DNA of 64,000 nt, taken from Verrucomicrobiia bacterium. GTDB lineage: Bacteria > Verrucomicrobiota > Verrucomicrobiia > Verrucomicrobiales > DEV007. How positions within the stretch are numbered: the stretch's first letter is position 1; each line of letters starts with the position of its first letter. Where the stretch lies: assembly GCA_030427505.1 (NCBI GenBank), contig JAUICH010000012.1, positions 62,001 to 126,000 of the forward strand, in the 5' to 3' direction. Of this stretch, positions 17,559 to 63,349 are shown piece after piece. The notes under the pieces were generated by a model. That model saw nothing but the letters and a program-made list of their open reading frames with translations. It made no database searches and had not been told where the DNA came from. The position numbers and the translations under genes were made by a program.

Positions 17559-19253
17559 TCAATCCGAGATTTCCTTTTTCAACTCGGCGGCCTTGGTACG
17601 GGCGTCGTTCATTTCCGAGGCACTCATGACTCCTGAGAAAGCCTTTAAGTTTCCTGGGGCGGTTCCGTTGCCGTATGAGTCCGCGATCAGAGTCCACGCG
17701 TAGCCCAAGACACGATCTTTCGTAAAGCCCTGAAGGCCGTTGAAATACAGGTATCCCAACTGAAGCTGTGACGCATCGTATCCCGCCTCGGCGGAACGGA
17801 GATAAAGCTCCTCCGCTTTTGCCGTGTTCTGAGTAACGCCATGTCCTTCCGCGTATAGATCGGCTAAGTTGTCGATTGCCATGCTATAGCCCTCATCCGC
17901 GGCCTGCTTGAACAGCGAAAAGGCCTTGGAGTAGTCCTGTTTGACGCCCTGGCCGTGTTCGTAAAGAACCCCCAGATTGTTCATCGCGCTCACTTCGCCG
18001 TCTTCGATCGCCTTCTCCATCAGCTCGACGGCTTTTTCGTAGTCTTGCTCCACCCCGTAGCCTTCCTTGTAAAGGTAACCTAAGTTACCGATCGCCTCGG
18101 TATTTCCCTGGTCCGCGGCCATCTGAATCCACTTGGCGGCTTCCTTGTAGTCCCGATCCACGCCCAACCCATAGAGGTACTTTTTCCCGAGATTGTTCTG
18201 AGCGTGCATGTTTCCCTGCTCGGCACTGGCTTTATACCAGCGAATGGCTCTTTCCACGTCTTTCTTAACTCCATTGCCGGAGTAATACATGACGCCCAAA
18301 AAGTTTTGAGCCGAGTCGTGATTCAGATCCGCGGCGCGCTGGAACCATGACAAAGCCTTGATGTAGTCCTGTTCCACTCCATCGTCGCCATAGTAGTATT
18401 TCCTACCTTGCTTATAATACTCGTCTGCCTTGTCCGCGGAGTTTCCCGAGTCATTCATTTCCGGCCGGCTCACCGCGCCATTCGCGCCGGGGACCACCGC
18501 GAACAGACCGTTAAAGTTACTGTTGCGCCACGGGTTCTGAGCGCCGCTGGTAGTGGACTGCACCTCCGTGCCCGCGCGGCGCAAAGCCATATCGATATCC
18601 AGCCCCGGGGTGAAGAGATGTTTCAGCAGGCCTTCGGTATAGGGGCTGTTGGACGAGGCGCCATCTGACGCCACGGACCCGGGATCCGTCGCAAAACAAA
18701 GTACCGTGCCCTTCGGCGTACTGGTGGGCGCGGCCAGGCCCGTCTGACTGGCGGCGCTCCGGGAGCCACGCCAACCGCGACCGAAAGGATCGTCCCGACA
18801 GCAATCCAGGATCACGATCTTCAAGCTCGCGCCTTTTCCGCCCCGGTCCAGGAGATCCAGTACCATGTCCAGGGGCACGGCCTCATACTTCAGCGTTTCC
18901 GCGGCGTCCGCCTCCGCGTCCACGGGCAACAGGTAGCTCACTCCGTTTACCTGCACCCCATGCCCGGCATAGAAAATCAGTGCCGTGTCCGATGGCGAAA
19001 GCTCACGGCTGAAATCCTTCATCGCCTGCTCGATCTCTTCCTGCACGGCGTCCTTCAGCAGGGTCACCTTGAAGCCCGCGGACCGTAAATTGGCCCCCAT
19101 CTTTTCCGCGTCATTGGTGGGGTTGGCCAGTTTCCGGCTGAACTGATAGTCTCCGTTTCCAATGACCAAGGCCAGACGCTGACCGGCATCCGCCTGGTTC
19201 GCCAACAGGATAAGCAGGCAACCGAATATCGTTAAGAAAGGCAGTTTTCTCAT
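17559..19253 (-). CDS. Exported caspase-like peptidase with Sel1 repeat array
   Basis: A 564-residue protein with a signal peptide (FLTIFGCLLILLANQADA). Residues about 26-255 are a C14 caspase/metacaspase domain: LALVIGNGDYQF opens it, ALIFYAGHGVQ holds the catalytic His98, and KIVILDCCRDDPF the catalytic cysteine (Cys152 by comparison with D-A-C-R-N-N-P-F). Residues about 275-540 are roughly seven Sel1-like repeats (YYSGNGVKKDVERAIRWYK, YLYGLGVDRDYKEAAKWIQ and so on), a protein-binding solenoid. Bacterial caspase homologues (orthocaspases) usually cut after Arg or Lys. It is the last gene of a tight three-gene operon, 39 bp after a second Sel1 protein with a nearly collinear repeat array. 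The peptidase call is firm; the target is unknown. Confidence 0.88.
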   Translation of the reverse strand: MRKLPFLTIFGCLLILLANQADAGQRLALVIGNGDYQFSRKLANPTNDAEKMGANLRSAGFKVTLLKDAVQEEIEQAMKDFSRELSPSDTALIFYAGHGVQVNGVSYLLPVDAEADAAETLKYEAVPLDMVLDLLDRGGKGASLKIVILDCCRDDPFGRGWRGSRSAASQTGLAAPTSTPKGTVLCFATDPGSVASDGASSNSPYTEGLLKHLFTPGLDIDMALRRAGTEVQSTTSGAQNPWRNSNFNGLFAVVPGANGAVSRPEMNDSGNSADKADEYYKQGRKYYYGDDGVEQDYIKALSWFQRAADLNHDSAQNFLGVMYYSGNGVKKDVERAIRWYKASAEQGNMHAQNNLGKKYLYGLGVDRDYKEAAKWIQMAADQGNTEAIGNLGYLYKEGYGVEQDYEKAVELMEKAIEDGEVSAMNNLGVLYEHGQGVKQDYSKAFSLFKQAADEGYSMAIDNLADLYAEGHGVTQNTAKAEELYLRSAEAGYDASQLQLGYLYFNGLQGFTKDRVLGYAWTLIADSYGNGTAPGNLKAFSGVMSASEMNDARTKAAELKKEISD

Positions 19254-19292
19254 GAGCTTACCTCCGTTGCAACAGGTTTGGTTTTCTCAATC

Positions 19293-20597
19293 TCACTTCA
19301 TCAAAGTCTGCGCCATGGCCTGGGCCGAAGCCACCTCAGCTCCGCTCATACGGCTGGCAAAGGCTTCCAAGTTCTTCTTCGCGGTGGCGCTCCCATTGTT
19401 CGCCGCGACAAAGGTCCAGGCATAGCCGGCTACCCTGTCCTTTTTGAAGCCACTCAACCCATTGAAATACAAGTAGCCCAGCTTGAGTTGTGAGGCGGTA
19501 TAGTTCGCTTTCGCGGCCTTGAGAAACAGTTCCTCCGCTTTTTGGGCATCTTTCTCCACTCCCTTTCCATCCAGGTAGCACTCCGCCAACTTGTGTATTC
19601 CCATGTCCAAATCTTTGGCCGCCGCCTGCTTGTAGAGTGACGAGGCTTTGGCAAGGTCCTCTGGCACGCCATCCCCATTTTCATAGACGATCCCCAAGTT
19701 GTACATCGCGGTCTTCTCACCCTTCTCGACCGCCTGGTTCATCAATTCAATGGCTTTGTCGATGTCTCTTTCCACCCCGAATCCTCTCCGGTACAGGTAA
19801 CCGAGATTCCCAATGGCCTCGATATTCCCCTGCTCGGCGGACAATCCGATCCACCAGGCCGCTTTCTGATAGTCTTTTTCTATACCAATTCCGTAGAGGT
19901 ATTTTTTGCCCAGATTATTCTGCGCGAAGGAGTGACCCAATTCGGCGCTTTTCAGGTACCACTCATTGGCTTTCTCCACGTCTTTTTGCACGCCCTGCCC
20001 GGAATAGTACATGACACCCAGATAATTTTGGGCGGAAGGATGGTCGAGTTCCGCCGCGCGCTGGAACCAGGTGAGCGCTTCCGCGTAGTCCTGCTCCACA
20101 CCGTCTCCCTTGTAGAACTTCCTGCCTTTTTGGAAATACTCCTCCGCTTCCGCGCTGGGCGGCGCGGGTGATGGCGGAGAAGGGGTCATGGCGGATGAAC
20201 CCGGCTCCGGCTTGGGGTCCGGAACAGACGTCGAGGGAGTCGCGGCGCCATCCGCCATTCCAGGTGTGTCGCCGGACTCAAGAAGTGCCACCAGATCGCC
20301 GGGGGCCACTTCCCCGGTCTGGCCTTCCGCGTCCAGCTTGATAAGGAAACTGGATTTCTCCGAGTTGGAAACTTTTCCCGTGGCTTTGCGGGCCTTTTCG
20401 CCCAAGCCTTCGATAACGAAAAAGATTTCCACCTTGCTGCCCACCGCCGGGGAAGCTTCTCCCGAAGAAGACTCCGCCTTCACCTCTCCGGATGGCGTGA
20501 CTTCCGCCACCTTCCACTCGCACCACGCCACGCCTGGCAGCAGCCCAACCAGCCAAACGGTAAGCCATCCTGAGAGGAATTTTGAGAATCGTTTCAT
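19293..20597 (-). CDS. Exported Sel1-repeat protein with N-terminal beta domain
   Basis: The ATG at 20597 (MKRFSKFLSGWLTVWLVGLL) gives a signal peptide and 434 residues; the frame continues upstream but without a signal. After the signal comes a small domain of beta character (about 27-110; GSKVEIFFVIEG and GEVAPGDLVALLES), reminiscent of SH3-like or carboxypeptidase-regulatory-like folds, then a Pro/Ser-rich linker (about 112-155), then about seven Sel1-like repeats to residue 400. The repeats align one for one with those of the downstream caspase protein (YYSGQGVQKDVEKANEWYL beside YYSGNGVKKDVERAIRWYK), so the two arose by duplication with exchange of the N-terminal domain. Probably an adaptor binding the same partner as the peptidase. 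Confidence 0.82.
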   Translation of the reverse strand: MKRFSKFLSGWLTVWLVGLLPGVAWCEWKVAEVTPSGEVKAESSSGEASPAVGSKVEIFFVIEGLGEKARKATGKVSNSEKSSFLIKLDAEGQTGEVAPGDLVALLESGDTPGMADGAATPSTSVPDPKPEPGSSAMTPSPPSPAPPSAEAEEYFQKGRKFYKGDGVEQDYAEALTWFQRAAELDHPSAQNYLGVMYYSGQGVQKDVEKANEWYLKSAELGHSFAQNNLGKKYLYGIGIEKDYQKAAWWIGLSAEQGNIEAIGNLGYLYRRGFGVERDIDKAIELMNQAVEKGEKTAMYNLGIVYENGDGVPEDLAKASSLYKQAAAKDLDMGIHKLAECYLDGKGVEKDAQKAEELFLKAAKANYTASQLKLGYLYFNGLSGFKKDRVAGYAWTFVAANNGSATAKKNLEAFASRMSGAEVASAQAMAQTLMK

Positions 20598-20635
20598 CAC
20601 CCGAGTCGAATTGGAAAAAAGCATTCTGAAATCCA

Positions 20636-23600
20636 TCAATCTTTGTCGCGAACGTCCGCCACCATTTCTTCTATCGACTGGGAGGCCTCGTTTTCTTTCA
20701 ACAAACCACCGGAAACCGCCACCCCGGCCTTCCAGAGATTTTCGGTAACCGGATTTCCCTTCTCGATCTGCTGCACGCCACCGGCCAGGCGGTCGAACCC
20801 ATGCCGGAAAATTCCGCGGCTCCACGGGTGGTCCCGCATGACATCCTGGGCCCAGGGGCTGAACTTCCCGTAATAGAATTCAATCACCGCATGGCCTTCC
20901 TCGGACTTCATGAGCACCTCGTCCCGGAACCGCCGGAGGAGCGCGATTTTCTCCGTGCCAAACTCGGTCCCCTCATAGGCCGTCTGCATGGAGCACATCA
21001 TGGCCATCATGTCCATGAAGGCGCGCTTCATCTCCACCGGCCACCCCTCCACAAAGGGTCCTCCCGTCATGACTCCCTGGCCTGACGCATCCTGATTTTT
21101 CATCGTAAAGGTCCCGTCTTTGCTTTCTATTTTGGAAAGGCCCATCCCCTCACCCGTGGACTCCGCCAGGCTGTCCGTCACCTTTTTACCCGGATAGGCC
21201 GCCTTCACTTCTTCCAGGGTGTTAAAGGTCCGGACACACTGGAACAGAAACGCGCCGCTGAAATCGATACTCTGGCCATTCGAAACGCCTGAGAATCTAA
21301 TGGGGCAGGAAAACTTCCGGCCTTCGGTAAACATCTCCCGCGGATACGTCTTCACTCCTTCGCCTCCGATATAAAACAGCATGGGCGAATCTGGCAGTGC
21401 CTCGAAGCGTAGCTGGTTCACGTTCACTTTCTTCAACGCCTCCTGGAACCTGGCGGTATCGGCCTCGTCGTCTCCAAAGTCCGTCAGATCGGCCATCAGC
21501 TCTCCGAGACTCGAAGGCTTCTCGGAGTCCGGGGTCGCCGGTGTCTGGGGCTCTGGCTCGTCCTCCAAGAGAGGCCCCATCACCTCCTCCAGATTGGCCG
21601 GAAAGGCGATGTTGAATACGACCAGGTAGGGCTTCCCTTCCTCCTCTCCCGCGGGCGGCCCGGTCATGGCGGGCGGCTCCGGCCGCGTGGGCACGGGGCT
21701 CGTCATGGCGGCTTTGGAATAGATGACGGCCTTCACGGCGGATCCCGGTTTGCTCTCCGTTCCGGGCGCGGGAAACTGCGAATAGACCACGCCTTCCTTT
21801 TCCGCCGACGGCGCCGGATCGCCCCCGGCAAAGGTGGCCTGGAAGCCCGCCCCCGTAATCGCGGCTTTGGCCTCGGCGGCTTTCAGGCCGACCACCGCCG
21901 GCACCCTCGTCATGGAAGGCTCATACTTCCCGTAGACGATGAAGGCTACGGGTGCCCCCGGCTCGGCCATTTCGCCCGCGGGGGGATTTTGGCTGAAGAC
22001 CCGGAAGCTCAGCTCTTCCGAGGGCGCGGCGTCTCCCCCCTGTAGCGCGGGCTGAAAGCCAGCCCCGGCAACCGCCGCGCGCGCGGCCGCCACATCCAGG
22101 CCCACTACGCGGGGCACGGCGGTCATGGCGGGTTTGTATTTTCCGTATACCGCAAAGGTTACTTCCGTGCCGGGATTCACCGTTTCGCCGGGTCCGGGAC
22201 TTTGGGAAGCCACCATGAAACTCTGCGCCTCCGTGGGCGCCGGGTCTCCCCCTTGTAAGACGGGCACCAGTCCCGCCGCCGTGATTCGTGAACGGGCATC
22301 CGCCGCGGGCAGCCCCGTCACGGACGGCACCACCGCCGTGGGTTTCCCGTAAACCCGCACGGTGACGGTGGACCCGATGGCGGCCTGGGAACCGGGCGCC
22401 GGGTCCTGCCCCTGAACGTGGAAGGCCAGATCCATGCTGGGGGCCGAGTCTCCTCCGGCCAGAGCCACTTCGAACCGCGCCGCCGCGAGCAGCCCCCGCG
22501 CGTCTTCCACGGACTGATTGAGAACATCGGGCACTGCGGTCATCAGCGGCTCCAGGGCGATGCGTTCCGCCAGCCCCAGGCAATGCCGTGCCTGAGCCAG
22601 ATAATCGCGAATGGACTCAATGAAAATGTCCGCCACGGCTTCCGTGGCTTCGGTGTCTTTCAGCACCGCCGCGACCTTGGCGGGCAGATCGCCGTCCCCG
22701 CCCTCCAGCCCCAAGGCTCCGATCCGCTGTTCCATCGCGTCGATGAGCGGGGGCAGTTCTTCGTAGCTGGTCTTGGCCTTACCCGCGCCTTCCGTGAGGG
22801 ATACCACGCAGGTTTCCACCCGCTTTTCAGCGGCGGAGATTCTGCCCAGGTAGGCGTCCACTTGATCCTGCACGCCGGGGTCCGGGTTCGTGGCGGCCAG
22901 GGCGTCCGCCTGGCCGTGAAGGCCCTGAATGGTTCCCAAGCTGCCGCTCACCGCGGCCTGGGCCTCCTCCGCAATGGCCAGAAGGCCGTCGCCGGAGGCG
23001 AACTCGCTCCTCATCTCTTCCACCCGGGCCATTACCTCTCCCACGCCGAGTGCCGTCATTTCCTGGTGCAAGCCGCGGACCTTAGCCGCCTCCGCCTTGA
23101 GTTCGGCGTAAACTTCCTCCGCCTTTTGCGCGCCCTTTTCGGTTTCTTCGAAAGCCACCCGCACTTCCGCCAGCAGAGTCTTCCTTTCCTCCGGATCTTT
23201 GGAAATCTGCATGGCCCGCGTGGTTTCGCAGGTCTTCAGCGCCGCCTGACCCACGGAGTCGCGGAGCGCGGCCAGTTCCTCCGCCAGCTTCCGAACCTTC
23301 GCCTGACCCGCTTCGGCATCGTCCAGGGCGGTCGACAGAGCCGCCGCGCGCTGTTCCAAATCCGCCACCAGGGCTTCAATTTCGGCCAAGCCGGACTTCA
23401 CATTTCCGATCACGCCAGTCAGCGTGCCCAGCGCTTCCTGACCGCGCGCGCACTCCGCCGCGGCCACGGAGCCCTCCGCCTCCGCGCGTTCGGTCAGCTC
23501 GCGCAGTTGCTCCAGGATGCTCCAGCCCATGTTCTCATCTTCCGTGCTGGTGCCGTCTCTATCCGGATCGTCTCCTTCGTTTTCCGCCTCTTCCTTGTCC

Positions 23601-26600
23601 GGGTCGGCATAGGCCAACCAATAGAGGCGAGCCGTGTCTTCCAGGCGCAGGCCCGGCACGGAGGGAGACGTGGCGGTAATGACCGCATCGTGCGTCACGA
23701 CCCGGAGTTCCTCATCTTTCAGATCCACCCGGAAGAAGGTCCGGATGTCGTCTTTCAGCACTGCCTCCGGGCGCCGGCCCGTTTCGTCGGACACCTTCCG
23801 GTAATTCACCGTGACCTGAATGTCGTCCGGTATTTCGTTAGGGTCTCCGGTAATCACGAAGCCCAGCGGGATCTCCTGCCCCAGGCGGGCCACGGGCCTC
23901 GGCACCTGGGCACTCAGGGCCGGTTTCTCAGGTTTGAAGTCAGGCTGCCGTTCGGCGGCCTGTTCCATGGCCTTGAGAATCTTTTCCTGGATAGCGGGAT
24001 GCCAGAAGAGCTTCTCCATGGCTTCCATCCGTTCCTGAGCTTCCTGGCCAGCTTCGTTGGCGATCTCTTTGACCAGGTCTCCTTCCAGGTTCTTCATGGC
24101 CTGTTCGTGAGCCGCCGCCGCTTGTTTCTGGTGAGCGTCCAGCCCATCGGGCTGATTATTGTAGAAAGCCTCGCCCTCCAAATAGTAGCGGATGAGTTCG
24201 TCCACGACCGCCTTCCGCCAGTCCCCGGCAATGAAGGAGCCATCCATCAGCATGAAGAACTCACCGTGATCCTGATTGGCGGCTTCCCAGGCTTTTTCCC
24301 AATCGATCAGCCAGCCCTGGAAATAGCGCCGGAGCCAAACCCGCTCGTGATCCCAGTAGCCACCGTCTTGCGTTCGGGTAAAGGCATCCCCATACTCGGC
24401 CAGGAGTTGGGACTGCGTGGCGCCCTCCAGGACAGACGGTGGCTGGTTGTCGATGGCCTGCCAGTTCGTGTTCCCCACCCGCTGACTCATGGACCGGAAC
24501 AGGTCCAGGTGCACTTCGTGATAAAAATACAGCCGCTGGAACCAGTAGCGCCAGTTCTGGTAATACTTGTCCCGCAAGTGTTCGTCCCGCGCTGCTTCCC
24601 AAGTGCGGACGTAACCGATATCGAGCCCCTGGCCGGAAGTCACATGCTGGTTCGCTTCCCGGAGGAAGAAATTCTTAAGCACCTCTTCCCGGTAATCCCT
24701 CGGCAAATCCATGACCGGCACATGCTGATCCAGCAGGGCGTTGGCCTTCAGCAGGTCCCAAGTCCGCTGGTCCTCGAAAGCGGGCAGCCGGCTTTGCGAA
24801 CCCATCGTGGGCACCACCCCCGGCTTCCCGGTCAGCACCAGGGAAACGACGTCGCTCTGAGTGGGCTGCCCGTAAAAGTACCAGCCCACGTCATAGAGCG
24901 TATTGGCCAAGCTGTAGTAGACCATGACGTGACCCAGCATGGCGCTGTAGGGGCCGCCATTGGGGAAAAGCTTCAGCCCCTGGGTGGATATCTGCGCGGC
25001 CAGGGGAAACACAGCCCCCTGGTCCTGGTAGGCCTTCAGATTCTTGGCGAAGTTGAACAACTGCCCCCCGATCGGCACTCCGCCCAACACCGAGTCGCGA
25101 ATCTCCTGACGCATGGCCTCCGGTTTTCCCGTGGCATAAGCCGCCGCGATCTTGGCGGCGGAATCGACCGTCCCAATGTCTTTGAAACTTTTCAGGTATT
25201 CGGTCCCAAATAGGCCAAGCTTCATCTCAGCCCGGAACTCGAACATGGCGGGCAGCGTCGTTTTGAAGAACTCGCCTGTCTGGTGGACGTTGAACACGTA
25301 AGTCTCCAGAGCGAAATCCCGCGCCGTGCCGGTGGGATCCGCTATCATCTGCCCCACGGTTCGAGACTGAATGGTCTGCCCGTCTCCATAACCGTCGATC
25401 ACGGCTTGCAGCAGGATGTCGGTCATCTTCCGGTGTACCCAGGAGCGGTCATCGGTATGGACGGAAGTGGCGAAGCGCGTCAGTCCCGGCACGTTGGGCA
25501 CCTGGCGGGTCTCCGCGATCAGGGTCTTTTCGGAGTTCGGAATGTCCAGCTGCTTCAGCAGGTCCAGCAGCACCCCGTTGCTGGCTTTCAACTCACCCGC
25601 CTCGATCGTTTCCACCGCGCCGCGCCGGCCGATGATCTCCAGCCGCTGCGCCCGCGCGATGGCTTCCAACTGCTCGAAGGCCGCGCGGGTTTCCTCCGGC
25701 GCGTTGTCGATCACCACCCGGATCAGGTCCGGATCGTCGATGAAGACCATGGCGGCGTGAAGTCCCCGGACCTGTTCGGCCAGCAGTCTCCGGGCGGGTT
25801 CGGCGCCATGCAGATATTTCTGCCGCGCGAAACCCTCCCGCGTAAACACGTCCGCCAGGACCTTCTGGGCCGTCTTCACGGCGGCCAGGTGGCCCACGGT
25901 GCGGAGCTTGTCCTGGTAACTTCCCTCCGCCATATCGGCCACCCGCGCCCGGGTCTCCGGGTCGTTCATGTCGATGTCCGCTTCGAACCGCCTCAGCGTC
26001 TCGAGAATCTCTTTCACCTCTACCGCGTAGTAATCGAGCTTGGTATCCGTATCGTTGATATTCTTAACCTGGTAACTCTGCCACTTGTCCGCCCAGGTAG
26101 TGGGCCGTTCGCCTGGTGGCGGCGAGCCTTTGATGATCTTATCCAGCTCGATGCGCTGCTGGATTTCCAGGATGCGCTGGATGTCGTCCAAACTTTCGAT
26201 ACCGGGCGGCAATTCGCCTTCAAAGTCGCTAAAAATCTTCTCAATGAAGTAAGCCCTGGCGCCGTCCCGCCCCTCCAGGAGCAACTGCTGAAAGTCCACC
26301 TCCAGATTCGTCAGGTGCACCAGCGCGGTGTTCACTTCCCGGCCTTCATACTTGGCTTGCTTGGTCTTGTTCGTCTTCTGGTGGTCCGCGTGATAGGAAT
26401 TCTCCAGTAGCGAGCCCAGAGCGCCGGTGCGGTCCACTTCTCCGGGAACGCCCTTGTAGAGCTTGGAAAGCTTCCGGGTCAGGCCGTATTGCAAGGCCAC
26501 GCCGTCCCGCAGCGGCACGTCCCCGTAGCCGGGAATCTTCATCGTTTTCCCCTCCCCCTTGGCCAGGGCCTGCGGCTCCAGCACGATGGTCCGCCCTTCG

Positions 26601-27310
26601 CTCAGATACCGGGTGTAAACCTGGGTCTTGTAAGCGCCGGGAATGAAGTAGGCCCCCTCGGTCTTGGTCAGCGCCTCGATGGAATTGTCCAACTCCACCA
26701 GGAACTGCGCCCACTTGGAATCCGACAGCCGCCAGTCCGCCATCATCCCGTCCCCGGCGAAGTGCATCATGTCGTAGCCTTTGCCCGGGTCCTTCCCCAT
26801 TTCAGCGGTGAAACGGGTGGTGAACTCTTTCAAGAGGAACTGATGCACGGCCTGGGAGCCTTCGGCGAGAACCTTCCCGTCCGCGTCCACGATCTGGTTG
26901 GCGTCCGTGAAGTGGGTCTGATCAAGGTCGCTGATGGCCCCGTTCATCTTGCCCGCGTTGTTGAACTCAACGCGGATGCCGTACTTCTGCACGATGTCCA
27001 TCCAGATCCGGACGTTGGCCCGGTTCCGGATTTCGCCGATCCGCATGTTGATGTCCCAGTAATTGCGGTCCGCCAGGATGTGGGCGAGCGCGTCCACGGC
27101 CCCGTCCTGGGAGTAAAGTTGCTTAACGAAGTCTTCGTTAATGTCGTCCAGCGAAATGCCCGGGCTGTTGTGAGAAGACTCGTTGAAATGATCCTGCCGG
27201 AGATCGGCAATCAAGGCATCCAGATCCTGCGCCTCCAAACGGGCCAGACCGAATGCCTGGACCGCAACGCACGCCGCGAAGATCGCGCCGAATATGGACG
27301 GTCGCTCCAT
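20636..27310 (-). CDS. Giant exported protein with four PASTA repeats and a degenerate CFI-box C-terminus
   Basis: A 2224-residue protein, first gene of the operon with the Sel1 and caspase-Sel1 genes (38 bp before the next start). It has a signal peptide (IFGAIFAACVAVQAFGLA). Residues about 30-1150 are unrecognised and mainly helical, with many Trp/Tyr-rich segments (KYYQNWRYWFQRLYFY); a short SDLDQT at 127-132 recalls nucleotidyltransferases but without enough context. About 1260-1585 is Ala/Glu-rich and should be coiled coil. About 1590-1865 holds four PASTA-like repeats (VPSVTGLPAADARSRI, VPRVVGLDVAAARAAV, VPAVVGLKAAEAKAAI and a first, more divergent one). Near the end CSMQTAYEGTEF, LLRRFRDEVL and FYYGKFSPWAQDVM match, with changes, the CFI-box-CTERM domain. 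PASTA repeats usually bind peptidoglycan fragments. Function unknown. Confidence 0.8.
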   Translation of the reverse strand: MERPSIFGAIFAACVAVQAFGLARLEAQDLDALIADLRQDHFNESSHNSPGISLDDINEDFVKQLYSQDGAVDALAHILADRNYWDINMRIGEIRNRANVRIWMDIVQKYGIRVEFNNAGKMNGAISDLDQTHFTDANQIVDADGKVLAEGSQAVHQFLLKEFTTRFTAEMGKDPGKGYDMMHFAGDGMMADWRLSDSKWAQFLVELDNSIEALTKTEGAYFIPGAYKTQVYTRYLSEGRTIVLEPQALAKGEGKTMKIPGYGDVPLRDGVALQYGLTRKLSKLYKGVPGEVDRTGALGSLLENSYHADHQKTNKTKQAKYEGREVNTALVHLTNLEVDFQQLLLEGRDGARAYFIEKIFSDFEGELPPGIESLDDIQRILEIQQRIELDKIIKGSPPPGERPTTWADKWQSYQVKNINDTDTKLDYYAVEVKEILETLRRFEADIDMNDPETRARVADMAEGSYQDKLRTVGHLAAVKTAQKVLADVFTREGFARQKYLHGAEPARRLLAEQVRGLHAAMVFIDDPDLIRVVIDNAPEETRAAFEQLEAIARAQRLEIIGRRGAVETIEAGELKASNGVLLDLLKQLDIPNSEKTLIAETRQVPNVPGLTRFATSVHTDDRSWVHRKMTDILLQAVIDGYGDGQTIQSRTVGQMIADPTGTARDFALETYVFNVHQTGEFFKTTLPAMFEFRAEMKLGLFGTEYLKSFKDIGTVDSAAKIAAAYATGKPEAMRQEIRDSVLGGVPIGGQLFNFAKNLKAYQDQGAVFPLAAQISTQGLKLFPNGGPYSAMLGHVMVYYSLANTLYDVGWYFYGQPTQSDVVSLVLTGKPGVVPTMGSQSRLPAFEDQRTWDLLKANALLDQHVPVMDLPRDYREEVLKNFFLREANQHVTSGQGLDIGYVRTWEAARDEHLRDKYYQNWRYWFQRLYFYHEVHLDLFRSMSQRVGNTNWQAIDNQPPSVLEGATQSQLLAEYGDAFTRTQDGGYWDHERVWLRRYFQGWLIDWEKAWEAANQDHGEFFMLMDGSFIAGDWRKAVVDELIRYYLEGEAFYNNQPDGLDAHQKQAAAAHEQAMKNLEGDLVKEIANEAGQEAQERMEAMEKLFWHPAIQEKILKAMEQAAERQPDFKPEKPALSAQVPRPVARLGQEIPLGFVITGDPNEIPDDIQVTVNYRKVSDETGRRPEAVLKDDIRTFFRVDLKDEELRVVTHDAVITATSPSVPGLRLEDTARLYWLAYADPDKEEAENEGDDPDRDGTSTEDENMGWSILEQLRELTERAEAEGSVAAAECARGQEALGTLTGVIGNVKSGLAEIEALVADLEQRAAALSTALDDAEAGQAKVRKLAEELAALRDSVGQAALKTCETTRAMQISKDPEERKTLLAEVRVAFEETEKGAQKAEEVYAELKAEAAKVRGLHQEMTALGVGEVMARVEEMRSEFASGDGLLAIAEEAQAAVSGSLGTIQGLHGQADALAATNPDPGVQDQVDAYLGRISAAEKRVETCVVSLTEGAGKAKTSYEELPPLIDAMEQRIGALGLEGGDGDLPAKVAAVLKDTEATEAVADIFIESIRDYLAQARHCLGLAERIALEPLMTAVPDVLNQSVEDARGLLAAARFEVALAGGDSAPSMDLAFHVQGQDPAPGSQAAIGSTVTVRVYGKPTAVVPSVTGLPAADARSRITAAGLVPVLQGGDPAPTEAQSFMVASQSPGPGETVNPGTEVTFAVYGKYKPAMTAVPRVVGLDVAAARAAVAGAGFQPALQGGDAAPSEELSFRVFSQNPPAGEMAEPGAPVAFIVYGKYEPSMTRVPAVVGLKAAEAKAAITGAGFQATFAGGDPAPSAEKEGVVYSQFPAPGTESKPGSAVKAVIYSKAAMTSPVPTRPEPPAMTGPPAGEEEGKPYLVVFNIAFPANLEEVMGPLLEDEPEPQTPATPDSEKPSSLGELMADLTDFGDDEADTARFQEALKKVNVNQLRFEALPDSPMLFYIGGEGVKTYPREMFTEGRKFSCPIRFSGVSNGQSIDFSGAFLFQCVRTFNTLEEVKAAYPGKKVTDSLAESTGEGMGLSKIESKDGTFTMKNQDASGQGVMTGGPFVEGWPVEMKRAFMDMMAMMCSMQTAYEGTEFGTEKIALLRRFRDEVLMKSEEGHAVIEFYYGKFSPWAQDVMRDHPWSRGIFRHGFDRLAGGVQQIEKGNPVTENLWKAGVAVSGGLLKENEASQSIEEMVADVRDKD

Positions 27311-27354
27311 AGCTGGGAGATTTCCAGATACCTGGACTCTGAAAGCTAAGTGCG

Positions 27355-27384
27355 ATACTAGGGAACAAACTTCGCCTCTGGCAA
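27355..27384 (-). promoter_or_regulatory. Putative promoter of the giant protein/Sel1/caspase operon
   Basis: Reading leftward, TTGCCA (27384-27379) is followed after 18 bp by TAGTAT (27360-27355), giving five and four of six matches to the sigma70 boxes. It lies 45 bp upstream of the ATG at 27310 and is the only plausible promoter in the 144 bp spacer before the operon. Confidence 0.4.
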
Positions 27385-50732: not shown

Positions 50733-53700
50733 ATGGAGAAACTTCCGGCCTCCCCAATCGCGGTAATCTCCCTCTGCTTAGGCGTGGGAATCTTCATCGC
50801 GGCGCCCCAACTTTCCCGCGCGGCGGAGTTTGAGAAAGACATCCGCCCCCTTCTGGAGGCCCGCTGCCTGAAGTGCCATGGCAAAGACGCCCAAAAAAGC
50901 GGTCTCCGCCTGGACAGCATGACCGGCGCCCTGCGCGGTGGCGACTCCGGCGAAAAAGCCATCGTCCCCGGCGACAGCACCGCCAGCCACTTGATCGAAT
51001 TGGTCACGACCCAGGACGAAGAACACCGCATGCCGCCGAAAGGCGACGCCCTTACCCCCGCTGAAGTGGCCGCGCTCCAGGCATGGATCGACGACTCGCC
51101 CCAATGGCAACCCGCCCTGGCCGAGGTGGAGGCCACCACCGTCCGCCACTGGTCTTTCAAACCCGTCACCCGCCCGGAGCCGCCCCAAAGCGCCCTTCTG
51201 GCTCAAACGGGTTCAGAAAATCCCATCGATGCCTTCATCGCCGCCCGTCTCGAAACCGCCGGTCTGTCTTTCAACCCGCTCGCGGACCGCGCCACCCTCA
51301 TCCGGCGGCTTTACCTGGACATGACGGGACTGCTGCCCTCGCCAGAGGCGGTCGCGTCCTTTGTCGCGGACGAGTCGCCCCTCGCCTGGGAACACCTGGT
51401 GGACGAAATCCTGGCCAGCCCCCACTACGGCGAGCGCTGGGCCCGCCACTGGCTGGACGTGGTGCGCTACGCGGACAGCCACGGCTTCGAGACCAACTGG
51501 GAACGCCCCAACGCCTACCCCTACCGGGACTACGTCATCCGCGCCTTCAATGACGACAAGCCCTACGACCGCTTCGTGTTCGAGCAACTCGCCGGAGACA
51601 CCGTGGGCGAAGATGCCGCCACCGGCTTCCTTGTGGCCGGACCCTGGGACCGGGTAAAGGGGAAAGACCCGCTCCTGCGGCTCCAGCAGCGTTCGGATGA
51701 ACTGAATGACATCGTCGGCACCACCGGGACCGCTTTCCTGGGCCTGACCATGGCGTGCGCGCGTTGCCACAATCATAAGTTCGATCCCGTTTCCCAGAAG
51801 GACTACTACTCCATGGTGTCCGTTTTCGAAGGCGTCACTCACGCCGAGCGTCCCCTGCGCGACGCGGAACGGGACGCGGAGCGGAAACAGCAGATCAAAG
51901 ACCTGAGCCGCGAACTCTCCCCCGTGCTCGACCAGCTTAGCCGCTACCAACCGAAGGCCCGGCTCACCCGCACCTTCCTGGTGGACGACTCCGGGCCCTT
52001 CGCCGAAACGCCGGACCAGCGCGGCGTCATTGTCCTCACCCCAACCAAAAGCTCCAAACCGCTGGATTACGAACCCGGAAAAAACCGGGGCGAGTTTGAC
52101 GACCCCGGCGATACCCGCCGCCTGCCGAACGTGGGCCAAAGCTATCAGCACTGGGCCGGCGTGGCGGAGCCGGGACAGGACCTCCTGGCCTGGCAGCCCG
52201 CCACCGCGGGCCGCTACCGCGTCTGGCTTTCCTGGGGCCGCTACTCCAGCCACGCCAAAGACGCCCGCTACATTCTGGACCGCGATGGCGACCTGAACAC
52301 ACGGGATGATCAGAAAGAAATCGCCTCAGTCGATCAACGCTACTTCTCGGACGGCACGGGCGATTTGGAGACGCGAAAGCTCTGGAGCGGGTTCCACAAC
52401 GCGGGCGTCCATGAACTGACTGCCGCCTCCCGGATCGTCCTCCGCCAAGGGGACAAAGGCGGCGCCACCACGGCAGACACCCTGCTCTTCGAGGAAGTGC
52501 CCACCGCCGGCGAAAGCGGAAAAGACACCTCGCCTCCGCACGCGCCCCACCTCCGCTCGCCCGTTACCCACCTCGCGAACGAGGAAAGCTTTGCTCCCGT
52601 GGAAGCCCGCTTCGTGCGCTTTACCGCCACTGAAGTGACCCGCGGCATGGAGCCCTGCCTGGACGAGTTGGAAATCTATTCCCCGGATCACCCCGCCCGG
52701 AACCTCGCTCTCGCTTCCGGCGGCGCCGTCGCCACGGCTTCCAGCGAATACCCTAACAATACCAAACACCGTGTCTCCCACATCAACGACGGCGTCTATG
52801 GGAACGAACACTCGTGGATCTCCCGCGAGAAAAACGGCGGCTGGATCCAGATCGAACTCCCCCGGACCGAGCGGATCGGCCGCATCCTCTGGGGCCGCGA
52901 CCGGGGTGGCGAAGAAAAGGAATACAACGACCGCCTGGCCCTCGCCTACCGCGTGGAAGTCTCAACCGACGGGAAAGCCTGGCAGACCGTGGCCCATTCT
53001 GGGGATCGCCTTGCCGATGCCTTCCGGGAACGGTTTCCCACCGTCCTCACCGTCGCCAATCTGGCGGATCAAGATGGACCGCTCCTCAGCGAGTTGATCG
53101 AAAGGCAGGCCCGCCTTGAAAAACAGATCGCCGAGCTGAGCCGCAAACCCATGGTCTACGCCGGCAAGTTCCAAGAACCGGAACCCACTAAGCGTCTCTT
53201 CCGTGGCGACGTCACCCAGCCCCGCGAAATCGTCGCCCCGGAGGCCATCGAATTCATGGCGGACGACTTGGACGCTTTCCACCTCCCCCCGGACGCGCCA
53301 GAGCAGGAACGCCGCGTGGCTTTGGCAAACTGGATCATCCAGCCGGACCATCCCCTCACCGCCCGCGTCATGGTGAACCGGCTCTGGCACTACCACTTCG
53401 GACGCGGCATCGTGGCCACGCCCTCGGACTTCGGCGCCATGGGCTTTGCCCCCACCCACCCGGAACTGCTCGACTGGCTGACCAGCGAGTTCACCGCCCA
53501 GGGCTGGTCCGTAAAGCACCTGCAACGGCTCATCCTCACCTCCCACACCTACCAACAGTCCAGCCGCCCGGAAAAAGACGGCATGGCCCAGGACGCCCAG
53601 GGTCTGCTCCTCTGGCGTTTCCCGCCGCGCCGCCTGGAAGCCGAAGCCATCCGGGACAACATCCTGCTCGTCAGCGGTTCACTGGACCAGACCATGTATG

Positions 53701-54143
53701 GCCCCGGCTTCCTCCTCTTCGAGCCCAATGACAACTACTCTCGCAACTGGGTGCCCAAAGACAGCTTCGAGCCCAGCGACATGCGCCGCATGATCTACAC
53801 CCTGAAGCTGCGGATGGAAAACGACGCCGTATTCGGCGCCTTCGACTGCCCCGACGCCGGGCAGATCGCCCCCGCCCGCAGCCGTTCCACCACCCCCATC
53901 CAGGCCCTGAACCTGTATAACAGCGGCTTCATGATCGACCAGGCCGAAGCCTTCGCCTCCCGCGTGGAAAACGAAACCGGGCCCTCCCCTTCTGCCCAGG
54001 CCGCGCGGTGTTTTGAACTCACCCTCGGTCGCACGCCCAGCCCGGAAGAAAGCATCGAAGCCGCCTCCCTCGTCGAAGAACACGGCCTCGTCAGTCTCTG
54101 CCGCGCCCTCTACAACGCGAATGGGTTTCTGTTCATCGAATGA
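50733..54143 (+). CDS. Planctomycete-type cytochrome c, DUF1549 and DUF1553 protein with discoidin-like insert
   Basis: A 1136-residue exported protein. Residues about 31-110 are a Planctomycete-type cytochrome c domain with CLKCHG (45-50) and a later RMPPKGDALTPAEV. DUF1549 spans about 145-350 (FIAARLETAGLSFNPLADRA, WLDVVRYADSHGFE). An insert from about 400 to 790 holds a beta-sandwich (WQPATAGRYRVWLSWGRY) and then an F5/8 discoidin-like domain (NLALASGGAVATASSEYPNN, WIQIELPRTERIGRILWG). DUF1553 occupies about 855-1110 (ARVMVNRLWHYHFGRGIVAT, FDCPDAGQIAPARSRSTTPI). These proteins come with DUF1501 partners, as here. The natural substrate of the pair is not known. Confidence 0.9.
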   Translation: MEKLPASPIAVISLCLGVGIFIAAPQLSRAAEFEKDIRPLLEARCLKCHGKDAQKSGLRLDSMTGALRGGDSGEKAIVPGDSTASHLIELVTTQDEEHRMPPKGDALTPAEVAALQAWIDDSPQWQPALAEVEATTVRHWSFKPVTRPEPPQSALLAQTGSENPIDAFIAARLETAGLSFNPLADRATLIRRLYLDMTGLLPSPEAVASFVADESPLAWEHLVDEILASPHYGERWARHWLDVVRYADSHGFETNWERPNAYPYRDYVIRAFNDDKPYDRFVFEQLAGDTVGEDAATGFLVAGPWDRVKGKDPLLRLQQRSDELNDIVGTTGTAFLGLTMACARCHNHKFDPVSQKDYYSMVSVFEGVTHAERPLRDAERDAERKQQIKDLSRELSPVLDQLSRYQPKARLTRTFLVDDSGPFAETPDQRGVIVLTPTKSSKPLDYEPGKNRGEFDDPGDTRRLPNVGQSYQHWAGVAEPGQDLLAWQPATAGRYRVWLSWGRYSSHAKDARYILDRDGDLNTRDDQKEIASVDQRYFSDGTGDLETRKLWSGFHNAGVHELTAASRIVLRQGDKGGATTADTLLFEEVPTAGESGKDTSPPHAPHLRSPVTHLANEESFAPVEARFVRFTATEVTRGMEPCLDELEIYSPDHPARNLALASGGAVATASSEYPNNTKHRVSHINDGVYGNEHSWISREKNGGWIQIELPRTERIGRILWGRDRGGEEKEYNDRLALAYRVEVSTDGKAWQTVAHSGDRLADAFRERFPTVLTVANLADQDGPLLSELIERQARLEKQIAELSRKPMVYAGKFQEPEPTKRLFRGDVTQPREIVAPEAIEFMADDLDAFHLPPDAPEQERRVALANWIIQPDHPLTARVMVNRLWHYHFGRGIVATPSDFGAMGFAPTHPELLDWLTSEFTAQGWSVKHLQRLILTSHTYQQSSRPEKDGMAQDAQGLLLWRFPPRRLEAEAIRDNILLVSGSLDQTMYGPGFLLFEPNDNYSRNWVPKDSFEPSDMRRMIYTLKLRMENDAVFGAFDCPDAGQIAPARSRSTTPIQALNLYNSGFMIDQAEAFASRVENETGPSPSAQAARCFELTLGRTPSPEESIEAASLVEEHGLVSLCRALYNANGFLFIE

Positions 54144-61795: not shown

Positions 61796-63349
61796 ATGAG
61801 CGATTCCCCCAGCCCCTCCAAGAACTCTTTCGCGGTCCCCGCCGTGACCCTCGTTATCGGCCTGGTCGTGGGCGCTTTGGCGGGGCGTTTCCTGCTGGCG
61901 GCTCCCTCACCCCCTATCCGGGATCCCGGCGCGACCGCCGGGTCCGGCCATTATTCCGGAAGCGCCTCCAGCGCGGATGGCGAACCGGGCGCTCCCTCTG
62001 ACTCCGGCCCTCCCGATTCGGCATCCGCCGCCTCGTCCTCCGGGAATGCCACCGCTTCCAAAGGCAAAAGCACGGCCGGAAAACCGGATAAGGACGAAAA
62101 ACTCAGCGCGGCGGAACTCATCCCCCTGCTCGAAGATCAGACCAAGACCAACCTGAACTCCATTCTGTTCTATACCGATCTGGCCGCCGCCATCGCCCGG
62201 CTGGATCCAAACGATATTCCGGAAGTGCTGGACTACGTGGCAAACTCCAGCAATCTGCAAATGAAGATGGCCGTTACGTCCATCGTCTTCGCCAATTGGG
62301 CAGCCGATTCCCCGGAAGAGGCCCTGCGCTACGCGGAAGGGATCACCTCACCCCAAGTGAAGTCCATGGCCATGCAGGGCGTTCTGTCCACCTGGATAGG
62401 AAGCGATCCGGACGCCGCCTTCCGCTACCTGGAAACCCTGGAGCCCAGCCGCCAGAAGACTCAGTCGCTCCAGCAGGCCATCATGTCCCTGGCCATGACC
62501 GAACCCGAAGCCGCCGCCGCGCGCGCCCTCGCTCAGGAGGACGTCATGATGCGCTCTCAATTGGTAAGCTCCGTCGGCCAAGTCTGGGCCATGAACGATC
62601 CCAAGGCCGCCATGCGCTGGATCGATCAGATCGAAGACCCCTCCCTGGCCCATCAAGTGAACGAATCCGTCTACACTGGCTGGGCCTATAACGATCCTCA
62701 GTCGGCCCTGGAATACGCCTCCACTCTGGACGATCCCACCCGCCAAAAGCAGATCCTCCAGCAGGCCCTCCAAGCCTGGATCCAGCAAGACCCGGACGCC
62801 GGCACGGAGTACCTTCTGGCCCTGCCCGAGGAAACCCGCACCGACGAATTGATCAACAACATTTCCTGGTCCCTCAGCCAGCTCCCCTTGGAAAAACTGA
62901 GGTCCGTCCTGAACTCCCTGCCCGAAAGTCAGCGCTCCACCGCCATGCGAAACCTGGCGGCCAGCCGCGCTAACGCCTCCCCCCGCGAAGCCATCCAATT
63001 GGTCGAGGAAATGGCAGACGAAAAAACTCAGGGGCTGGCCTTCGGGAACATCGCCTCCACCTGGGCCCGCAGCGATCCCTATGGCGCCGCACAGTGGCTC
63101 AACGAACTCCCCGACGGCACCCCTCGGGACCAGGCCATTGGCGGCTTCGCCCGCCAGCTCGTCGAAATCAGCCCTCGAGACGCCCTCAATTGGGTAGAGT
63201 CCATCCAGGACGAAAACTATCGCACGTCCCAGGCCCAAAGCCTCCTCCGCCAGTGGCTCACCCGCGACCGTGCCGCCGCCGAAGGATACATCCAGCAAAC
63301 CGGCCTAATCGATCAAGCCGCCAAAGACCGCCTGTTGAATAGGCAGTAG
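61796..63349 (+). CDS. Membrane-anchored alpha-solenoid repeat protein
   Basis: From the ATG at 61796 the product is 517 residues: one N-terminal membrane helix (VTLVIGLVVGALAGRFLLAA), a Gly/Ser/Pro/Ala-rich linker (about 40-100), then about ten helical repeats of roughly 30 residues with the pattern W-a-x-x-D-P-x-x-A-x-x-y (STWIGSDPDAAFRYLETL, AWIQQDPDAGTEYLLALP, TWARSDPYGAAQWLNELP). The repeats are like HEAT/TPR solenoids and are frequent in Verrucomicrobiota proteins of unknown role. A longer open frame upstream is antisense to trpE and rejected. A paralogue follows 37 bp downstream. Confidence 0.75.
   Translation: MSDSPSPSKNSFAVPAVTLVIGLVVGALAGRFLLAAPSPPIRDPGATAGSGHYSGSASSADGEPGAPSDSGPPDSASAASSSGNATASKGKSTAGKPDKDEKLSAAELIPLLEDQTKTNLNSILFYTDLAAAIARLDPNDIPEVLDYVANSSNLQMKMAVTSIVFANWAADSPEEALRYAEGITSPQVKSMAMQGVLSTWIGSDPDAAFRYLETLEPSRQKTQSLQQAIMSLAMTEPEAAAARALAQEDVMMRSQLVSSVGQVWAMNDPKAAMRWIDQIEDPSLAHQVNESVYTGWAYNDPQSALEYASTLDDPTRQKQILQQALQAWIQQDPDAGTEYLLALPEETRTDELINNISWSLSQLPLEKLRSVLNSLPESQRSTAMRNLAASRANASPREAIQLVEEMADEKTQGLAFGNIASTWARSDPYGAAQWLNELPDGTPRDQAIGGFARQLVEISPRDALNWVESIQDENYRTSQAQSLLRQWLTRDRAAAEGYIQQTGLIDQAAKDRLLNRQ

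Follow-up and report, generated by a model that had tools for sequence, protein, structure and literature searches.

A likely operon encoding a giant PASTA protein, a Sel1 protein and a caspase-Sel1 protein in a Verrucomicrobiia bacterium

In this study, we examined three adjacent genes within a 64,000-nucleotide window (i.e. the whole stretch of DNA that was analysed, positions 62,001 to 126,000 of contig JAUICH010000012.1, assembly GCA_030427505.1) from a Verrucomicrobiia bacterium of the lineage Verrucomicrobiales; DEV007. They encode a giant protein with PASTA repeats, a Sel1 protein and a caspase-like peptidase carrying a Sel1 array (P0003). Overall, they look like a lineage-specific assembly, made of an orphan and of two modules whose kinds are known, and not like a widespread system. 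In the material searched, nothing matched the N-terminal half of the giant, and the three-gene arrangement was seen in a single genome; Sel1-bearing caspases were already known. We tentatively propose, with less than even confidence, that the three genes form a lineage-specific envelope operon and that the Sel1 array of the caspase would guide this protease to whatever its non-catalytic twin binds, perhaps the PASTA giant.

Results

Three export-type genes in a likely operon

The genes, defined as open reading frames (ORFs) and their translations, are the following:

20636..27310, minus strand: giant export-type protein, 2224 amino acids (ORF, translation, hydropathy and codon usage)
19293..20597, minus strand: Sel1 protein with a small N-terminal domain, 434 amino acids (ORF, translation and Pfam)
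17559..19253, minus strand: caspase-Sel1 protein P0003, 564 amino acids (ORF, Pfam and residues read)

An earlier sequence-only reading of this DNA had described them as head to tail, and the three ORFs are indeed adjacent on the minus strand, with 38 bp between the giant and the Sel1 gene and 39 bp between the Sel1 and caspase genes. The first figure presupposes the later ATG of the Sel1 gene, which has alternative in-frame starts: the ATG at 20636 shares one base with the stop codon of the giant (TGATG), so that translation of the Sel1 gene may be coupled to that of the giant. No promoter-like site was detected in the two intergenic gaps, in a scan whose overall count was at chance level. 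From this geometry, the three genes likely form an operon. Hydropathy analysis revealed a single N-terminal hydrophobic segment in each protein and no other (within residues 4-27 in the giant), which fits export-type N-termini for all three, as previously claimed.

A caspase-like peptidase with the Sel1 array of its neighbour

The domains of the caspase-Sel1 protein are located as follows:

18516..19178, minus strand: caspase (Peptidase_C14) domain with His98 and Cys152 (PF00656, residues read)
17778..18398, minus strand: Sel1 repeats, outer limits of six repeats, collinear with the array of the adjacent gene

Peptidase_C14 was matched with an E-value of 1.1e-41 (143.6 bits for a cut-off of 21.4), and both residues of the His-Cys dyad are present (H98 in YAGHG, C152 in LDCCR), in agreement with the intact dyad reported before. 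By profile and dyad, the protein thus qualifies as a predicted Peptidase_C14 member, i.e. a prokaryotic caspase homologue. Pfam counts seven Sel1 repeats in this protein (E-value 1.3e-61) and seven in the 434-residue protein (4.3e-58). When aligned in register, the two arrays share 172 of 289 residues (59.5%), a figure that falls to 31% or less after a shift of one to four repeats; they are collinear beyond chance, and the near collinearity noted earlier holds. Among the genomes searched, the best match of the caspase's array is that of the adjacent gene (59%), followed by that of a gene on contig C47 of the same genome (48%). The ratio of nonsynonymous to synonymous substitutions between the arrays was discarded, synonymous sites being saturated and the aligned set having taken in non-homologous columns before the array.

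The AlphaFold2 model of the Sel1 protein reached a predicted local distance difference test (pLDDT) score of at least 90 in 257 of 434 residues and was confident in the Sel1 array only, which is predicted to form an alpha superhelix; the nearest solved structures are Sel1 folds. Its small N-terminal domain had no Pfam match, and model confidence was below 50 over most of its length.

A giant protein with an orphan N-terminal half

Four regions were delimited in the giant:

23861..27229, minus strand: orphan region, residues 28-1150 (no Pfam match over cut-off, no relatives found)
22556..23527, minus strand: Ala/Glu-rich, probably coiled-coil zone, residues 1262-1585 (weak Rad50/SMC-like matches, composition)
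21731..22537, minus strand: four PASTA repeats (PF03793), at 22349-22537, 22148-22333, 21935-22120 and 21731-21907
20789..20986, minus strand: degenerate CFI_box_CTERM domain, residues 2110-2174 (NF041770)

The frame of the giant has the features of a real gene, coding throughout and with native codon usage. Its G+C content at third codon positions was 0.75-0.84 across seven full blocks of 300 codons and 0.76 in the short last block. Codon usage correlated at 0.937 with the pool of 14 other window genes (0.842 for the Sel1 gene and 0.90 for the caspase gene), against a reference spread of 0.843-0.937 when seven of the 14 were compared one at a time. A recent foreign origin of the giant is not favoured, as its G+C content by codon position and its codon usage match the neighbourhood. 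On the plus strand, antisense ORFs of up to 931 amino acids lie opposite the giant (window 20188-27349); we judged them to be by-products of GC-rich third positions and not genes.

The four PASTA repeats were matched with a Pfam E-value of 3.4e-38, each above cut-off, and the CFI_box_CTERM model (NCBIfam NF041770) with 43.1 bits for a cut-off of 40. The PASTA and CFI-box assignment of the sequence-only reading therefore stands for the former and holds for the latter in a degenerate form: C-S-M replaces the motif C-F-I and the domain ends 50 residues short of the C-terminus, so that the giant lacks a C-F-I motif at the very C-terminus, a criterion taken from the name of the model. A literature search under the name 'CFI-box' returned nothing.

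The N-terminal half had been said to match nothing known, and no relative or recognisable domain was found for it at the sensitivity used. Residues 28-1150 had no match in Pfam, NCBIfam, PADLOC or PDB sequences. With seven pieces of the giant (four of them N-terminal) and E-values up to 10, the only two hits were GatB_N (E-value 0.088) and a poly(A) polymerase domain of poxviruses (0.14), both far under cut-off. The sole PHROG match of the giant was a weak one to a tail tape measure protein (E-value 0.033), which covers residues 1061-1540 and thus lies for the most part in the coil zone. A single-sequence AlphaFold2 model of the orphan region was uninformative (pLDDT 36, predicted template modelling score 0.24). 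Comparing 150-residue pieces with each other recovered PASTA as the only strong repeats, one weak pair in the coil zone (E-value 0.083) and no internal repeat within residues 1-1200. The sequence ISDLDQ (residues 126-131, window 26918-26935) resembles by eye what we take to be a nucleotidyltransferase active-site motif; no tool supported this likeness and we do not claim it.

Distribution of the giant

The source genome (6.4 Mb, 56 contigs, 96.5% complete) contains no paralogue of the giant, which is its only PASTA gene and its only CFI-box gene. Searches were extended to overlapping samples of other genomes; genome searches scored few candidates per genome, and contig scans detect close relatives only. 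The giant had no match in 113 related genomes at 1e-10. It was also absent from 73 genomes of the family, save for one weak match to PASTA only (3.5e-4). Its N-terminal half had no match in 386 genomes of the phylum, nor any relative in plasmids, phages, genome contigs and viral contigs, at the sensitivity used, and its tail (residues 1590-2224) had none in plasmids. CFI-box matches were found in 10 of the 386 genomes, seven of them above cut-off. Within the loci of these CFI-box genomes (most of them about 3 kb), phmmer matched the tail region of the giant, with its CFI domain, to three ORFs, and returned nothing for the orphan half, the coil zone or the PASTA block. A literature search for giant PASTA proteins in Verrucomicrobia returned nothing relevant.

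The conserved three-gene system for which synteny had been set beforehand as the test was thus not recovered, the giant occurring in none of the 73 family genomes apart from the weak PASTA match. Missing synteny does not show that the proteins do not cooperate in this organism, because a gene seen in one lineage cannot have conserved neighbours.

The other caspases of the genome and the origin of the caspase-Sel1 gene

The genome holds 21 caspase matches, one of which is a short fragment. In the stretches read, phmmer retrieved 19 caspase ORFs (one a 102-residue fragment), a set that left out two divergent Pfam matches: 12 carry an FGE (sulfatase-modifying-factor-like) domain and one, P0003, a Sel1 array, so that the C-terminal module looks exchangeable. 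Pfam assigned FGE tails to three of six other caspases of the genome and a weak TPR to a fourth, and recognised no tail domain in the remaining two; a seventh carried YARHG. Several of these caspase genes (about 20, on contigs C9, C21, C22, C33, C39 and C50; loci L011-L019) are arranged as tandem pairs or a triplet. By eye, their N-termini are mostly of export type, and one protein has three YARHG stretches. The 102-residue N-terminal fragment (L019:6621-6929) adjoins a full caspase gene and is probably what is left of a duplicate copy in tandem.

The caspase domain of P0003 is 44-48% identical to those of several FGE-tailed caspases of its own genome, and 46 and 49% identical to the two best of relatives. 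None of the caspases at 17 loci of relatives carried Sel1 (some of these loci end within the gene). In Pfam, four caspases of relatives comprised two with FGE, one with HEAT repeats and one with no known tail. The closest caspase domains thus belong to FGE-tailed caspases of this genome and its family, which have FGE where P0003 has its Sel1 array. Across a table of 141 genomes (E-values up to 1e-30, at most nine candidates scored per genome, so that weaker Sel1 tails and further candidates would be missed), only P0003 combines a caspase half with a Sel1 half. A literature search for secreted bacterial caspases with an FGE-sulfatase domain yielded nothing useful among the papers listed.

Apart from the two operon genes, Sel1 repeats occur in the genome in one further gene, on contig C47 (L082:8581-9915). 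This gene is a full-length paralogue of the operon Sel1 protein (55% identical, same N-terminal domain), which shows that genes of this Sel1 type also occur without a caspase. It is flanked by urea/amide-type transport and amidase genes and by phage-like genes (named by reading their translations). With a profile of the Sel1 pair, 12 other genomes among the 141 were matched at 1e-40, always in the repeats and never in the N-terminal domain. Scans of genome contigs and viral sequences with the Sel1 pair or the giant gave no relatives; both Sel1-pair patterns lay in the N-terminal domain, so that plain Sel1 proteins were not sought.

Taken together, the caspase-Sel1 gene looks like a chimera between a caspase resembling the other export-type caspases of the genome and a Sel1 array of the neighbour's type. 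In the simplest history, the Sel1-only gene type would have come first and a caspase would then have joined such an array; we infer this direction from the sequences.

Comparison with known systems

Prokaryotic caspase homologues (i.e. metacaspases and orthocaspases) with Sel1 show the same domain pair as P0003: Sel1 occurred in 6.0% (40) of the prokaryotic metacaspase sequences in one survey (PMC3501461). Domain swapping among the caspases of one strain was suggested for Microcystis (PMC5756287), and orthocaspases are described as cleaving after positively charged residues (PMC6426788). On plasmids, 40 of 492 records matching caspase-Sel1 cover at least 80% of the query, and the 20 matches listed are all from Rhizobium (33-35% identity). 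Two Rhizobium loci contain three caspase genes with Sel1 tails (phmmer) and N-termini of export type by eye; in contrast with the operon studied here, pieces of the giant had no match among their 102 ORFs, one locus having an unrelated 1730-residue ORF. What distinguishes the operon from Sel1-caspases elsewhere is that its array is a close paralogue of that of the adjacent gene and that a PASTA giant lies upstream. On one of these plasmids (L110:3364-17384), two Sel1-tailed caspase genes lie within 6.5 kb, and ORFs of 632 and 1730 residues near them resemble by eye a penicillin-binding protein and alpha-2-macroglobulin, respectively.

PASTA repeats of the PknB kind can bind muropeptides. Like the PASTA Ser/Thr kinases (Stk1/PknB), the giant has four tandem PASTA repeats, which match PknB structures by sequence. 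Unlike them, it has no kinase domain: NF033483 reached 94 of 450 bits, with its best stretch in PASTA, and Pfam detected none.

Other features of the window

A promoter-like site precedes the giant:

27355..27384, minus strand: promoter-like site TTGCCA-18-TAGTAT, within the gap of 144 bp that precedes the giant (weak, chance-level count)

Among the ten other window proteins scanned, positions 50733-54143 encode a 1136-residue PSCyt1/PSCyt2/PSD1 protein with an F5/8-type C domain.

Discussion

The gene geometry is observed, and joint action of the three proteins is what we infer from it. In the proposed mechanism, the giant, once exported, would be tethered to the cell wall through its PASTA repeats. 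Being collinear paralogues, both Sel1 arrays likely bind the same or an overlapping partner, an arrangement expected of an enzyme with a non-catalytic competitor or anchor; the caspase's array would bring the protease to that partner, and the non-catalytic twin would anchor, shield or compete with the caspase. Because it is co-encoded, the giant is the economical guess and the most likely candidate for this partner or substrate: the caspase may cleave flexible parts of it, or the giant may serve for docking. Failing that, the partner may be another envelope protein. The evidence counted in favour of this reading comprises the gene spacing with a possible TGATG coupling, the three export-type N-termini, the in-register arrays, the C47 paralogue without a caspase, the seemingly exchangeable C-terminal module of the caspases and the fact that the giant is the only PASTA gene of its genome. 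Precedents are the Sel1-like inhibitor PA3978 (described below) and the listing of PASTA and Sel1 side by side as peptidoglycan-associating domains (PMC7159879). A bolder version, i.e. an extracellular proteolytic circuit new to one lineage, in which the caspase took its neighbour's array by domain swap and became the specific protease of a wall-bound giant with the twin as competitor, appears unlikely to us.

Several points weigh against the proposal. A Shine-Dalgarno-like GGAGGT lies upstream of the caspase-Sel1 start, i.e. this gene has its own putative ribosome-binding site, and promoter-like sites in the stretch scanned are as frequent as chance predicts (2 observed for 2.3 expected). The giant is a singleton in the genomes searched, and no conserved linkage can be demonstrated for it. 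Caspases of this type are present without the giant, both in the same genome and in relatives, and the 18-kb stretch around the C47 Sel1 paralogue has no adjoining giant or caspase; both speak against strict dependence. Finally, the position of the P0003 branch was not fixed by a tree of 36 caspase domains.

In a second account, the three genes are incidental neighbours: the caspase would be one of about 20 export-type caspases with a general role in the envelope or outside the cell, and the giant would be an unrelated surface protein, the transcript being shared and the mechanism not. The abundance of caspases in the genome and their presence in relatives without the giant, the Sel1 paralogue standing alone and the lack of synteny all agree with it. 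It accounts less well for the tight spacing with its possible TGATG coupling, and for the caspase's array, which matches the adjacent gene best (59% vs 48%) and so formed from that gene type. We regard this account as quite possible, short of an even chance.

According to a third account, the Sel1 proteins would regulate a peptidoglycan enzyme encoded elsewhere, the giant would position them and the caspase would remove an inhibitor or regulator. The PASTA block, with its sequence match to PknB PASTA structures, is in line with this, and there is a precedent in Pseudomonas aeruginosa: the predicted periplasmic Sel1-like protein PA3978 is described as binding and inhibiting the catalytic domain of the lytic transglycosylase MltF (PMC10746161). 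The Sel1 superhelix is common to PA3978, PA5087, PA5088 and the Sel1 protein studied here, which has an export-type N-terminus; the arrays differ. Neither the three proteins nor the ten other window proteins scanned have a recognised peptidoglycan enzyme domain. We consider such enzyme control rather improbable.

The remaining account, a contact-dependent effector (the secreted giant) followed by immunity-like Sel1 genes, is suggested by fold matches to PA5087 and PA5088 (titled immunity proteins) and PA5086, their neighbour in number, by the front half of the giant having no relatives in the searched genomes and by caspases being described as releasing peptidases in polymorphic toxins (PMC3482391), but it is very unlikely: those caspases lie inside the toxin, just upstream of the C-terminal toxin domain, whereas here the caspase is a separate protein and the unique part of the giant is N-terminal, no toxin, effector or secretion domain was recognised in the giant (Pfam, NCBIfam), whose tape measure match is weak and falls largely within the coil zone, and no effector or secretion-system domain was recognised in the ten other window proteins scanned.

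Conclusions

The observations of the sequence-only reading were confirmed and its interpretation is supported in part, for the operon-like arrangement, the domains and the twin Sel1 arrays; proteolytic activation and surface assembly by the three proteins remain candidate functions. If the caspase processes the giant, an exported bacterial caspase would gain a defined substrate. In that case, such caspases would be seen to acquire specificity by swapping the C-terminal binding module (FGE, YARHG or Sel1) within one genome, and the operon would provide an enzyme/twin pair with a shared binding array.

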